Positions 14,463 to 19,025 of a DNA stretch of 22,609 nt are shown one piece after another. Numbering within the stretch: the stretch's first letter is position 1; each line of letters opens with the position of its first letter. Source of the stretch: a virus; the IMG/VR virus record IMGVR_UViG_3300037189_029083, positions 1 through 22,609 of that record, one strand, 5' to 3'. Both the position numbers and the translations under genes were made by a program. The notes below the pieces were generated by a model. That model worked only from the letters and a program-made list of their open reading frames with translations, did not search any database and was not told the DNA's origin.

Positions 14463-14543
14463 TGTTGTCCGGCGTCTTGTTAACGGTTGTCCGGCGTCTT
14501 GTTAATGGTTGTCCGGCTTGCAGAAACGGTTGTCCGGCGCCCC
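14463..14543. repeat. Four direct repeats of TTGTCCGGC at 22, 22 and 21 bp spacing
   Basis: TTGTCCGGC starts at 14465, 14487, 14509 and 14530. The first two units share GTTGTCCGGCGTCTTGTTAA (about 20 identical bases), the third and fourth keep GGTTGTCCGGC. Spacing of two helical turns puts all copies on one face of the DNA. The fourth copy runs into the terminator stem that follows. A protein-binding array, origin iterons or an RNA element in the 3' tail of the mini-operon are all possible. Confidence 0.75.
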
Positions 14544-14563
14544 TTTATGGGGCGCTTTGTTGT
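14537..14563 (+). terminator. Rho-independent terminator of the plus-strand mini-operon
   Basis: GCGCCCC (14537-14543), loop TTTAT and GGGGCGC (14549-14555) form a perfect 7-bp GC stem, followed by TTTGTTGT. It lies 100 bases after the stop of the 66-residue gene and faces the oppositely oriented terminator at 14594-14626. Confidence 0.8.
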
Positions 14564-15362: not shown

Positions 15363-15949
15363 CACAGCACCTCGCTGATTGCAGAGCGCTGCTCTTCCCA
15401 CTTCCTATCCACATAGACAGAGAAGTATTGGGAAGTCTCGACATCATCGAGCCATCCAGACGGGAATAGCACTTCATTGTCCCGCTCGAATAGAAGGCAA
15501 GTAGTCTCCTTTCCCCCCTTCATATCCAGCAATCGCAGAAGAACAGGACTGTGGTCTCCCGTTACATTGCATCCCCAGTCACTCCAATCCACAGAGATTT
15601 CGTCCTCGTCCCAGTCATAGTCGAACTGCTGAGCGATTGCCGCTTCCATATCAATGCCATCCGGTCCCAAGCGTTCGTGTAGTTCCTGCCAATCCTCCTC
15701 CTCCAGCAAGCGCTCGAACATCTTGGCTCGCTTCCAGTGAAGACCGTCCTCCTTCAGTCCTTCAATAACATCCCTGAAGACATAGCTCCAATTGACTGGA
15801 CAGCTCCATCCAGCGTCGAGATACTCCTGCAGGATTTTACCACCAACATAGTCCCTATCGCACTCATAGAGCTCGACCTTCTTATCGGCATCCAGGACCA
15901 TCCACTGCACATCATCAACAACAATAACATTACCGGCTTCGATAGACAT
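15362..15949 (-). CDS. 195-residue highly acidic protein, paralogue of the 16080-16589 gene
   Basis: The start is set at ATG 15947-15949 because the product then begins MSIEAGNVIVVDD, like its paralogue (MSIEVGSLFVF), and GGAGAGATGCG lies just upstream; an upstream in-frame ATG has no such support. The two proteins share a WxxxVNW-Y(V/F)F block, an EEEDWQELHERLGPDGI / AEKEWDKLEHIIPQQGI block, and a (L/I)FPS...DD ending. About 46 Asp/Glu against 18 Lys/Arg give a net charge near -28, with many Trp. Strongly acidic small phage proteins often bind host DNA-binding proteins or mimic DNA; that is only a possibility here. It has its own promoter-like element and leader hairpin. Confidence 0.65.
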   Translation of the reverse strand: MSIEAGNVIVVDDVQWMVLDADKKVELYECDRDYVGGKILQEYLDAGWSCPVNWSYVFRDVIEGLKEDGLHWKRAKMFERLLEEEDWQELHERLGPDGIDMEAAIAQQFDYDWDEDEISVDWSDWGCNVTGDHSPVLLRLLDMKGGKETTCLLFERDNEVLFPSGWLDDVETSQYFSVYVDRKWEEQRSAISEVL

Positions 15950-15965
15950 CGCATCTCTCCTGTTA

Positions 15966-16000
15966 GTGGGAGTATCACCGTCCCACATAGATAAATATTA
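15966..16000 (-). promoter_or_regulatory. Promoter-like element and leader hairpin with GGTGATA loop
   Basis: On the minus strand TAATATTTATCTATGTGGGA (16000-15981) leads into the hairpin GTGGGA-CGGTGATAC-TCCCAC (15986-15966), then AACAGGAGAG and the start at 15949. The parallel leader at 16608-16645 has the same CTATGTGG junction, arm plan and GGTGATA in the loop, which makes chance unlikely. Confidence 0.5.
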
Positions 16001-16014
16001 CTCTACTTCGTCAA

Positions 16015-16072
16015 GTGTTCAACACGCCTAAACTTGTAACGGGATTGTAACAAAGCGCGAACGAACGCGAAC
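16015..16072. repeat. Short repeats and palindrome between the two paralogous genes
   Basis: The interval contains the 11-bp palindrome GTGTTCAACAC (16015-16025), two TTGTAAC copies 11 bp apart (16034, 16045) and two GCGAAC copies 10 bp apart (16057, 16067). All are in one gap between minus-strand genes. Clustered, helically spaced short repeats suggest protein binding, but each is short. Confidence 0.35.
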
Positions 16073-16079
16073 AACCTAA

Positions 16080-16589
16080 TCAACAAATCACTGCAAATCT
16101 ATCCTCTTCGTCGAAGTAATCGTCATCACTCCCATCAAACCTCTTGTCCATTAGTCCATCGCAAGAGGGAAAGATAATCCACTCATCTTCAACTCCATAC
16201 CGATAATAAGTCTTTGGCCTATCCTCAAAGTGGTAAAAACCTAAATATTCTTGTAGAACTTCACTAATCAAATCCTCTCGCGAGAATATTCCTTGTTGTG
16301 GAATAATATGCTCGAGCTTATCCCATTCCTTCTCTGCGCAGAGATTGCTAAACTGTTGAAGTTCTTCTTCACACCAGTTCTTTCGATAGCTATCGATTAT
16401 GTAGTTGAAATACCTATTCCAATCAACAAAAGTTGGCCAACGCGAGGTAAGCTTACCAATAATCTCTTCTTTCAAATACCTAAGAAGAATATCACCTTCG
16501 TCAAGAACTCGGATTGAACTCTCGTTCAAACTCTGGACAATGAACTTCTCACCACGAAATACAAATAGACTACCAACCTCAATGGACAT
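16080..16589 (-). CDS. 169-residue acidic protein, paralogue of the 195-residue gene
   Basis: ATG at 16587-16589 on the minus strand follows AAGGAGTGAGCG. The product begins MSIEVGSLFVFRGEKFIVQSL and shares its plan with the 195-residue neighbour: a beta-rich N-terminus, a WPTFVDWNRYFNYII block, a helical EKEWDKLEHI block and an IIFPSCDG...DDDYFDEEDRF acidic ending. It lacks roughly 25 residues of the central acidic loop of the paralogue. No catalytic motif or membrane segment is seen. It is the first gene of the minus-strand island and is separated from its paralogue by a gap with repeats and a second promoter-like element, so the unit appears to have been duplicated together with its control region. 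Confidence 0.65.
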   Translation of the reverse strand: MSIEVGSLFVFRGEKFIVQSLNESSIRVLDEGDILLRYLKEEIIGKLTSRWPTFVDWNRYFNYIIDSYRKNWCEEELQQFSNLCAEKEWDKLEHIIPQQGIFSREDLISEVLQEYLGFYHFEDRPKTYYRYGVEDEWIIFPSCDGLMDKRFDGSDDDYFDEEDRFAVIC

Positions 16590-16607
16590 CGCTCACTCCT
16601 TGTTTGC

Positions 16608-16645
16608 GTGGATGTTATCACCTCATCCACATAGATTAATTATCT
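16608..16645 (-). promoter_or_regulatory. Promoter-like element and leader hairpin of the first island gene
   Basis: On the minus strand AGATAATTAATCTATGTGG (16645-16627) leads into a perfect 7-bp hairpin GTGGATG-AGGTGATAA-CATCCAC (16630-16608), then CAAGGAGTGAGCG and ATG at 16589. The loop GAGGTGATA is itself an extended match to the anti-ribosome-site sequence, although no start codon follows it closely. Confidence 0.5.
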
Positions 16646-16749
16646 TCTTCCAGCACAAAATGTTTAACTTGCTCAAAATATTTTTCATTCAAAACAAAAT
16701 GAATATTCAATCGCGATTGAAAACTCAGAGTAAATTTAGAATTTGCTTT
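16646..16749. other. AT-rich stretch containing a 16-bp perfect palindrome
   Basis: This gene-free stretch is clearly AT-rich (runs such as AAAATATTTTTC and AAAACAAAATGAATATTC) and adjoins the phased repeats. At 16706-16721 it holds TTCAATCGCGATTGAA, a perfect palindrome and a plausible dimeric-protein site. An AT-rich unwinding region beside iteron-like repeats is a usual origin layout. Confidence 0.5.
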
Positions 16750-16815
16750 GTGACAATTGCGTGAAATGTTTGTGACATTTGTGTGACAACTGTGTGACAA
16801 TCTGGTGACAACGTG
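16750..16815. repeat. Six tandem 11-bp repeats, consensus GTGACAAYTGT
   Basis: Units start at 16750, 16761, 16772, 16783, 16794 and 16805, each exactly 11 bp apart: GTGACAATTGC, GTGAAATGTTT, GTGACATTTGT, GTGACAACTGT, GTGACAATCTG, GTGACAACGTG. GTGACA is kept in five of six. One repeat per helical turn would present every copy on the same DNA face. The array lies in a gene-free region about 450 bp upstream of the TerS candidate. Origin iterons, a TerS-binding packaging site and a regulator array all fit. Confidence 0.85.
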
Positions 16816-16838
16816 GGACGGGATGGGCTGGGGCTGGG
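16815..16838 (+). other. Canonical G-quadruplex motif
   Basis: G-runs at 16815-16817, 16820-16822, 16825-16827, 16830-16833 and 16836-16838 are each separated by two bases (AC, AT, CT, CT): GGG-N2 repeated with five runs. This satisfies the strict G3N1-7 quadruplex rule with very short loops. It begins on the last base of the phased repeat array. Confidence 0.8.
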
Positions 16839-16962
16839 CTAGTGTGTAGAGTAAATTAAATATTTACCTAGGCCGTGGGCCATAGGAATTATAAAATTTT
16901 CTATTAGTGGAAAGCCGCTTTTCAAATCGAGCTCTAATTCCTAAACTTTTACTCCCCAGCCC
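16825..16962. repeat. Nested inverted repeats in the leader of the packaging operon
   Basis: GGGCTGGGG (16825-16833) is the exact reverse complement of CCCCAGCCC (16954-16962), and TAGGAATTA (16883-16891) of TAATTCCTA (16935-16943). Inside lie GTAAAT-5-ATTTAC (16851-16867) and CCTAGGCC-GTG-GGCCATAGG (16867-16886, one bulged A). In RNA or as a cruciform this gives an ordered multi-stem fold. The outer left arm is part of the G-quadruplex tract. Confidence 0.6.
16859..16870 (+). promoter_or_regulatory. Promoter-like AATATTTACCTA ahead of the packaging genes
   Basis: AATATTTACCTA resembles AATATTTATCTA of the 15981-16000 element and points toward the packaging genes. A separate AT-rich TATAAAATTTTC lies at 16890-16901 and could be a sigma-70 type -10. 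The message leader would be about 100 bases. Confidence 0.35.
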
Positions 16963-16989
16963 TAATACTTATAGAACACAAGGAACAAG

Positions 16990-17256
16990 ATGCAACAGCC
17001 ACACAACACCGAACCAATCAAGCTAGCCGCGGGCGACAGAATAGAGATCTGCGGATCTCCAATAAACGCGTGTCTCTTCACAGTCCTGGAAGCCCTACCT
17101 TACACAACACATCCAGGACCTATAACAAAGAGCAAGCTATTAGTTAGTGGAAAGGGGGGAACCGGTTGGATAGATATAGAGCGTCGCGGAAACCGCGCCG
17201 CCTGGACAACCTGGGGAAGCGAAATCAAGGGGCCTTACGGTCCATTAGACATATAG
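16990..17256 (+). CDS. 88-residue protein, unknown, first gene of the packaging operon
   Basis: ATG at 16990 is preceded by AAGGAAC. The product, starting MQQPHNTEPIKLAAGDRIEI, shows a beta-rich pattern (AAGDRIEICGSPINACLFTVLEAL ... SKLLVSGKGGTGWIDIERRGNRAAWTTWG) with 'aGD.i.i' at the start, again reminiscent of small SH3-like barrels. The GKGGTG run is glycine-rich but not a nucleotide-binding loop in context. No family is recognised. It is separated by 9 bases from the TerS candidate. Confidence 0.6.
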   Translation: MQQPHNTEPIKLAAGDRIEICGSPINACLFTVLEALPYTTHPGPITKSKLLVSGKGGTGWIDIERRGNRAAWTTWGSEIKGPYGPLDI

Positions 17257-17265
17257 GGGGATGTG

Positions 17266-17529
17266 ATGGAAAAGAAGTATTCAAAAGCTATTGCTGCCTG
17301 CAACAAGCGTGACTCGCTGGAACTGAGCTGGGAGCTTATCCGTGTTTGCCTCCAGGACCTGGACAACGGCAATCCCCCAGAGCTGGGCAAGACTGTTGTT
17401 ATCGAACTGGTAAAGACCGTCTCGGCCGCGGAGCGGCAAGCAGGTATGCCAGGCAGCAAGGTGGATCAGGTTGCTGCTGAGCCTCCAGCCAAGGATATGG
17501 ACCGCATCAAGGACTGGTTGAAGGGCTAA
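17266..17529 (+). CDS. Terminase small subunit candidate
   Basis: ATG at 17266 is preferred over the adjacent GTG at 17263; GGGGG lies 5-9 bases upstream of either. The 87-residue product is helical, MEKKYSKAIAACNKRDSLELSWELIRVCLQDL with a later SAAERQAGMPG and a C-terminal acidic-basic helix DMDRIKDWLKG. Its stop shares a base with the ATG of the large terminase. Direct coupling to TerL, helical content and a length near that of T7 gp18 (89 residues) make a DNA-recognition small subunit the best guess, but no helix-turn-helix can be proved by eye. If so, the phased GTGACA array upstream is a candidate binding site. Confidence 0.45.
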   Translation: MEKKYSKAIAACNKRDSLELSWELIRVCLQDLDNGNPPELGKTVVIELVKTVSAAERQAGMPGSKVDQVAAEPPAKDMDRIKDWLKG

Positions 17530-19025
17530 TGGCGAGACCACGCAATCCACCAAAGCTGGAAGAGGTATTAAAGGATCCTGTCCTATTCATATCTCGCCTC
17601 TCCATCGTGGATAAGAAGGGCAAGCTGGTAAAGATGAAGCCCCAGGGGGAGCAGATCTCTATCATCCAAGCCTTGCATAGCGGCGATGACGTCCTCATCC
17701 TCAAGCCCCGTCAGATCGGTAGCACCACAGCAGTGGCCGCCTACTTCTTCTGGAAGTGGTATGTGAGCGATAGCCCCACAACACACGTTATCCTCTCCCA
17801 TAAGATGTCGTCATCCCAGCATATCTTCAAGATGTTCAAGCGCTTCTGGCAGGGGCTTCCCGGGGACTTGCAACGCGAGTTGTCTGTTACTTCTAACTCG
17901 ACAATGACCTTAAAGGACACTGGCGCCACGCTGCAGGCACACACCTCAGCGGGCGACGGTGGCCTACGTTCCTTCTCAGCCTCCTCCATCCACATCTCAG
18001 AGTTTGCCTTCACGGACAACGCCGATGAGTTGAAGGCCACCGCTGTCGCTGCCCTTAACGGCGGCCAGCTCTGCATCGAGTCCACAGCCAACTACTGGGG
18101 CGATGCCCTGCACAATGAGATCCAGCTGTGGGAAGCTGATATGGTGGAGTGGCGCTTTCTCTTCTTCCCCTGGACTGAGCACGAGGGCTACAGGTTGGAA
18201 GCGCCGTGGGACTGGGAACAAGATCCTGAAAGTCAGCTTACGAGAGAACAACAATACTGGATGGCGAAGCAAGTGGGCAAGCTAGGCTGGACCAAGTTCC
18301 GCCGAGAGTATCCCCTTACAGTTGAAGATGCCTATGCCCAGACCGACGGCGCCTGGATTCCAGCATCACTCTTCGAAGACTTCAACGTTATCAAGGGGGA
18401 ACCAGATGGCATCGTCTTTGCAAAGCTGGACTACAACGACAAGTATGCTATCGGCGTTGACGTGGGCGCTGGCACCGGCGGAGACTTCTCAGCCCTGGTC
18501 GTAATGTCAGCCCTAACAGGCGACATCGTAGAGATACGCCGCGCCAACGATCTAACACCAACAGAGTGGGCTGATGTTGTGGCCGATGCCAGCAGAAAGT
18601 GGCGTGATGCAAAGGTCCTTGTCGAATCTAACGGCACCTGGGGCGGTGTTGTTCTAACCGAGCTGCGTCATATGCGCATCCCCTTGTGGAAGACCGGTGA
18701 GGGCAAGGACTGGATCACCAACGCCTCCAACAAGCCTATTATGCTGGAGAGCATAAAGGATCGACTCCTGAAGGGGCAACTCAGAAATCTAGACCACTGG
18801 ACAATGAGCGAACTGCGCTCCTTCAAGGTAAACGACCGCGGCGAACCGTTCTGCCCACGCAACGGCATCCATCACGGTGACACTGTTATGGCACTTGCCT
18901 GCTGCATCCAGTGTCTTGAGTCTGTGGCACCGCCAACGCAAGCCTACCTTCCAGACTGGTTAAAGCTGCGTCGTCTACAAAGAGCGCAAAATTCTGGAAA
19001 TATGGAAGCACTTCGTCGTTATTAG
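17529..19025 (+). CDS. terL: Terminase large subunit (packaging ATPase and nuclease)
   Basis: This 498-residue protein starts one base inside the preceding stop. The ATPase half has a Walker A-type loop PRQIGSTT (60-67, Ser where classical loops have Lys), a Walker B-like strand ending IHISEFAF with Glu158, and the coupling motif LCIESTAN (181-188). The nuclease half has GVDVGAGTGGDFSALVV (Asp311, Asp319), VESNGT (Glu367) and HGDTVMALACC (Asp451), the acidic triad of RNase H-like TerL nucleases. It pumps DNA into the prohead through the portal and cuts it at the end of packaging. The Lys-less loop occurs in other TerL lineages, so activity is expected. Portal follows after 28 bases. Confidence 0.95.
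   Translation: MARPRNPPKLEEVLKDPVLFISRLSIVDKKGKLVKMKPQGEQISIIQALHSGDDVLILKPRQIGSTTAVAAYFFWKWYVSDSPTTHVILSHKMSSSQHIFKMFKRFWQGLPGDLQRELSVTSNSTMTLKDTGATLQAHTSAGDGGLRSFSASSIHISEFAFTDNADELKATAVAALNGGQLCIESTANYWGDALHNEIQLWEADMVEWRFLFFPWTEHEGYRLEAPWDWEQDPESQLTREQQYWMAKQVGKLGWTKFRREYPLTVEDAYAQTDGAWIPASLFEDFNVIKGEPDGIVFAKLDYNDKYAIGVDVGAGTGGDFSALVVMSALTGDIVEIRRANDLTPTEWADVVADASRKWRDAKVLVESNGTWGGVVLTELRHMRIPLWKTGEGKDWITNASNKPIMLESIKDRLLKGQLRNLDHWTMSELRSFKVNDRGEPFCPRNGIHHGDTVMALACCIQCLESVAPPTQAYLPDWLKLRRLQRAQNSGNMEALRRY

Follow-up and report, generated by a model that had tools for sequence, protein, structure and literature searches.

The parC centromere of plasmid R1 has its 11-bp direct repeats grouped in clusters within a control region, and headful packaging (pac) sites are located near TerS genes, upstream of the terminase genes. 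For a replication origin of the lambda-O type, an initiator of some 250–300 aa is required. Iterons accompanied by an AT-rich unwinding tract are known from lambda and the Stx phages (PMC7466680). The Pho box is made up of 11-nt direct repeats, with seven conserved and four less conserved positions (PMC4415409), and the control of phage genes by host PhoB is known experimentally from cyanophages (PMC10976474). Operators and iterons in phased arrays are familiar, and the element described here is in itself ordinary. It lies in a 22.6-kb linear virus record (22,609 nucleotides) from a small, uncultured phage, the whole of which was analysed and is referred to below as the window.

The array and its control region

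The array (16750–16815, plus strand) consists of six 11-bp units of the form GTGACA-N5, recognized by direct reading and by independent detection. The units start at 16750, 16761, 16772, 16783, 16794 and 16805, a step of 11 bp throughout, and the core is GTGACA in units 1, 3, 4, 5 and 6 and GTGAAA in unit 2, which bears out a preliminary description of six units spaced 11 bp apart, five of them with an intact GTGACA; the final GTGACA stops at 16810, and the end point of 16815 takes in the last spacer. The consensus printed in that description, GTGACAAYTGT, was overdrawn: conservation is limited to GTGACA plus the following A/T, with a pairwise identity of 0.94 for the core and 0.36 for the spacer, and the proper consensus should be GTGACA-N5, or TTGTCAC-N4 on the minus strand. 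The word and the 11-bp phase have, thus, been kept, and the array did not arise by a recent tandem duplication. A neutral tandem repeat or an assembly artefact is extremely improbable given these identities (94% and 36%), because slippage or an artefact would have copied cores and spacers alike, although another tandem array is present nearby (14464–14539) and unrelated short repeats are found upstream of TerL in several relatives.

The phasing of the array is far above chance. Five of the six hexamers in the 11-bp register are identical, versus a maximum of two (39 runs) or three (one run) in 40 Markov-1 sequences, each of window length, so the earlier statement that the phasing is not a chance product holds. 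The lag-11 score of the array is 33/44; the best score at any lag in block-shuffled sequence averages 23.1 (sd 1.1). Four exact consecutive units, represented in the window by units 3–6, occur in 17 of 2.9 million viral contigs. We infer that the array is a binding site for a DNA-binding protein, cooperative binding along one face of the DNA being the natural reading and one that fits a conserved core with free spacers.

The array is contained in a non-coding divergent region of 400 bp (16590–16989), the main control region of the slot described below, delimited from the ORF table and the sequence, in agreement with the gene-free setting originally proposed; no plus-strand gene can cross the array, because a GTGACA every 11 bp places TGA in all three plus-strand frames. 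The AT-rich neighbourhood mentioned in the same proposal is found to the left (16639–16749; 27% GC in the adjacent 100 bp), where the flank contains the palindrome CAATCGCGATTG, but less so to the right (45% GC). G-rich tandem 5-mers (GGGAC GGGAT GGGCT GGGGCT GGGCT; 16815–16841, plus strand) adjoin the array. A promoter-like site of the leftward gene, TAAACA-16-GATAAT (16639–16666, minus strand), was identified by consensus match, 84 bp from the array; its score is ordinary, and promoter-like sites are no more numerous in the control region than in shuffles. No DnaA boxes were found within the window, Rfam and tRNA searches gave no match, and the RNA fold of 16840–16990 had a z of −0.48. Cumulative GC skew, which had been suggested as a means of locating an origin, tracks gene direction and does not locate one.

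Neighbouring genes and relatives

The array lies between divergent transcription units, and its TGTCAC strand points to m16589 (16083–16589, minus strand), an orphan ORF of 169 aa encoding an acidic protein (pI 4.4), which is the first gene downstream of that strand. The next ORF considered here, m15949 (15365–15949, minus strand; 195 aa, pI 4.2), is a paralogue of m16589 (E 2e-5). A degenerate two-unit version of the array with an 11-bp step, TTGTTACAATCCCGTTACAA, is located upstream of m15949 (16034–16053, minus strand) and could be a chance occurrence; 23 sites with up to three mismatches were seen versus 18 expected. Searches for homologues of m16589, m15949 and ORF16990 (see below) found none, a family search with m16589 gave no significant match, this gene is not a recognizable phosphate gene, and its predicted structure (pLDDT 38) is unusable. 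On the minus strand, the two acidic-protein genes share a 5′ leader (15945–16000 for m15949, 16589–16640 for m16589) with a small hairpin (GTGGGA..TCCCAC and GTGGATG..CATCCAC) directly after a sigma-70-like −10 element.

The first rightward gene, ORF16990 (16990–17253, plus strand), is an orphan of 88 aa from the ORF table, and is followed by a candidate small terminase gene, TerS (17263–17529, plus strand; 87–88 residues, predicted all-helical), and by the large terminase gene, TerL (17529–19025, plus strand; phrog_2, E 1.3e-24). The 87-residue protein had been put forward as a TerS candidate before, and it is the right candidate, as 26 relatives have a homologue, directly before TerL in most of them. 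The model of this protein has a pLDDT of 83 and gave no significant match in PDB or BFVD; its fold does not, therefore, bear on DNA binding. The array precedes the TerS candidate by about 450 bp, as might be expected of a packaging site (pac or cos) bound by a TerS ring, and among the matches listed, 20 other array-bearing records have a TerL, with the array upstream of it in 17 of the 20 and within 4 kb in 10 of the 20 (4.1 expected for uniform placement, P 0.002), an enrichment that may overstate the link to packaging and merely reflect the concentration of non-coding DNA at module borders. However, the GTGACA array is absent from all of the relatives searched, which were gathered via TerL and portal, and few of these have a strong periodic signal upstream of TerL. 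One relative, L259, has at this place an 11-bp phased array of a different word (ATAGATAGG; ATAGATAGGTT type; L259:14–85), which precedes its TerS by about 75–145 bp; in L004, repeats of 7 and 8 bp are found upstream of TerL. The same phasing at the same place in relatives, which had been proposed as a check, is thus not kept on the terminase side, although 26 of them share the TerS candidate. Because relatives that share the TerS family do not have the array, a conserved packaging site for TerS, a leading reading in the preliminary description, appears very unlikely.

The window belongs to a group of podoviruses of about 30 kb and is collinear with its relatives. Three of these, G006 (29.9 kb), G007 (30.4 kb) and G008 (32.6 kb), have terminal overlaps of 87, 199 and 123 bp, respectively, which suggests that they are complete circular sequences, each about 30 kb long. 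These three podoviruses (L320–L325) encode a giant protein of 1.7–2.0k aa, and G007 has an ORF resembling a GIY-YIG endonuclease, by sequence resemblance only, between TerS and TerL (L323:15646–15942 / L322:2–403). In comparison with G007, the window is missing only the capsid-to-tail part (about 7.4 kb), which is structural in the complete relatives, and it thus contains in full the slot that separates the late tail/lysis genes from TerS (about 12.75–17.26 kb). The array sits in this slot, which is variable and non-structural in the group, between the leftward acidic-protein genes and the terminase operon. A Prim-Pol/VapE replication gene occupies the slot in G008, and no replication gene was seen in G006 and G007. 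The slot proteins of the window are small (66–195 aa), and those searched gave no significant family match and no match to ParM/ParR-like genes; no recognizable initiator was found in the window, and the initiator family PF09681 is absent from the 14 relatives examined. Some complete-looking podoviruses of about 30 kb appear to be without a recognizable replication gene, and the array occupies the primase-polymerase slot of a relative. The tandem array at 14464–14539 has a 22-bp unit (GTTGTCCGGCGTCTTGTTAACG, 3.5 copies) and is located between convergent genes, beside a terminator-like hairpin (14536–14556).

With a probability of roughly 0.45, the array is tentatively interpreted as a tandem operator for an oligomerizing regulator, OmpR/PhoB-like or other, which would bind head-to-tail and is probably encoded by the host. 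A protein recognizing TTGTCAC/GTGACA would bind side by side, head to tail, with one subunit per helical turn, and the 7+4-bp unit corresponds to the grammar of OmpR/PhoB-type winged-helix regulators. The bound protein would set the transcription of m16589 and its paralogue m15949, and might also control the divergent ORF16990-TerS-TerL operon. Because a recognizable regulator is missing from the phage, we infer, as we do for the direction of control, that the binding protein is probably that of the host. The operator is favoured because it requires only a regulator, possibly the host's, whereas an origin requires an initiator, which is absent from the slot; the divergent genes and the two-unit element before the paralogous m15949 provide a setting that fits an operator. 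A regulator array had been ranked last among the readings first proposed, and it suits the local layout best. The points against it are that neither a regulator gene nor homologues of the controlled genes were found, that 84 bp separate the array from the predicted promoter of m16589 and that the two-unit element could be due to chance.

The TGTCAC word in other phages

A scan for three exact units returned at least 119 viral and at least 119 bacterial loci, these counts being samples. Among the matches listed, 48 of 120 viral arrays fall inside an ORF, according to a mechanical ORF call, and 27 distinct array-bearing phage ORFs have PHROGs matches mostly to replication initiation protein, DnaD-like loader, replisome organizer and O-like families, with Pfam Phage_rep_org_N (PF09681) matching a few of them. 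These initiator counts rest on Pfam and PHROGs, a purpose-built initiator HMM having been set aside as circular. Among the 17 contigs that have a row of four exact units, 4 are such initiator genes. Many in-gene arrays are followed by tandem repeats of 5–6 bases, which resembles the layout of iterons and unwinding tract in lambda and the Stx phages (PMC7466680), and the isolate Escherichia coli phage vB_EcoM-606R7 has both the array and the 5–6-mer repeats within its O gene. A purine follows TGTCAC in 95% of the units within initiator genes and in five of the six units of the window. TGTCAC-purine 11-bp iterons inside O/DnaD-like initiator genes are found at L345:1008–1060 and in L026, L040, L061 and L117, followed by purine-rich 5–6-mer repeats (e.g. 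AGATAAAGATACAGATAAAGATAC) that may act as an unwinding element. The recurrence of this array in the O/DnaD-like initiator genes of very different phages, which did not come up in the titles and abstracts retrieved by searches of open-licence papers, provides a simple handle for phage origins. In-gene arrays always have TGTCAC on the coding strand, but this polarity was dropped as evidence, because GTGACA in 11-bp steps places stop codons in every frame of the opposite strand. GC content 5′ and 3′ of the arrays displayed no class-wide asymmetry, HMO-2011-type isolates related to some array-bearing contigs had no array in the regions scanned, and a BLAST search with an idealized array against isolate phages yielded no match.

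The use of the TGTCAC word as an iteron of phage initiators counts against an operator in the window, and favours origin iterons, in which a lambda-O/DnaD-type initiator would bind the six units, the AT-rich left flank would melt and the host helicase would be loaded. The 5–6-mer repeats that follow many in-gene arrays, the purine in five of the six window units and the Prim-Pol/VapE gene in the slot of G008 are consistent with this possibility, as are the intergenic phage arrays, a mixed set whose neighbours include primase, helicase and integrase families, none of which is among the listed families of control ORFs (array neighbours compared with control ORFs of the same loci, best 25 families each). 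However, the AT-rich flank of the window array lacks 5–6-mer unwinding repeats, the slot has no recognizable initiator, PF09681 is missing from the 14 relatives, the segment missing from the window is structural in relatives, and the complete-looking G006 and G007 have neither array nor initiator. The initiator would have to lie in the missing segment of about 7 kb, be unrecognizable or come from the host or a prophage. The earlier suggestion of origin iterons thus gains strong support from the recurrence of TGTCAC in phage initiator genes and loses from the phage itself having no recognizable initiator; though doubtful, it is the main alternative to the operator. It is very unlikely that the phage has dropped its own replication genes and that lambda-O-type iterons recruit an initiator from the host, a resident prophage or a co-infecting phage; if true, this would constitute replication piracy by a full-size podovirus.

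Other arrays are found in promoter settings. The arrays of L024 and L067, with a word nearly identical to that of the window, closely precede sigma-70-like promoters (in L024, TTGACT-17-GATAAT follows directly; in L067, the array lies before a TTGACA element), those of L051/L101 lie between divergent early genes and TerS, and at L090:2883–2910, three TGTCAC units are located directly upstream of a phage pstS-like gene and are likely to be a Pho box in a phage. The arrays most similar to that of the window in sequence or setting occupy promoter regions, which argues for an operator; against it, no −10 enrichment at a fixed distance (10–11 nt) was detected across all intergenic arrays. One form of operator would be a set of three 22-bp host Pho boxes, through which phosphorylated host PhoB would activate m16589 upon phosphate starvation. 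TTGTCAC-N4 matches the 7+4 unit and is similar to CTGTCAT (5/7 bases), the L090 array at a pstS-like gene is comparable, and a possible −10 element read from the sequence, TAAATT (16733–16738, minus strand), lies 11 nt past the last TTGTCAC, which is the distance found at Pho-type promoters. Nevertheless, such boxes seem unlikely, given that no recognizable Pho genes are present downstream of the bacterial arrays among the matches listed, that the −10 spacing is not general and that m16589 does not resemble a phosphate gene. As the settings include initiators, promoters and terminases, the word and its phase serve more than one protein family and cannot alone name a function.

Comparison with known systems

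The window array resembles headful pac sites in its place, and differs from them in its absence from relatives with a homologous TerS. It is similar to parC of plasmid R1 in its 11-bp repeats, but no ParR/ParM-like gene is present among the slot proteins searched. Like the lambda and Stx-phage origins with their O-protein iterons (PMC7466680), it has multiple direct repeats, and the AT-rich stretch beside them may correspond to the unwinding tract; the O-like genes of other phages carry the same TGTCAC 11-bp units; unlike them, it is located outside any initiator gene, with no initiator found and no purine 5–6-mer repeats. With respect to the Pho box and the tandem operators of the OmpR family (PMC4415409), the window differs in having six units, a distance of 84 bp to the predicted promoter and no phosphate gene, and is alike in its 11-nt repeats, with seven conserved and four loose positions, and in the closeness of TTGTCAC to CTGTCAT.
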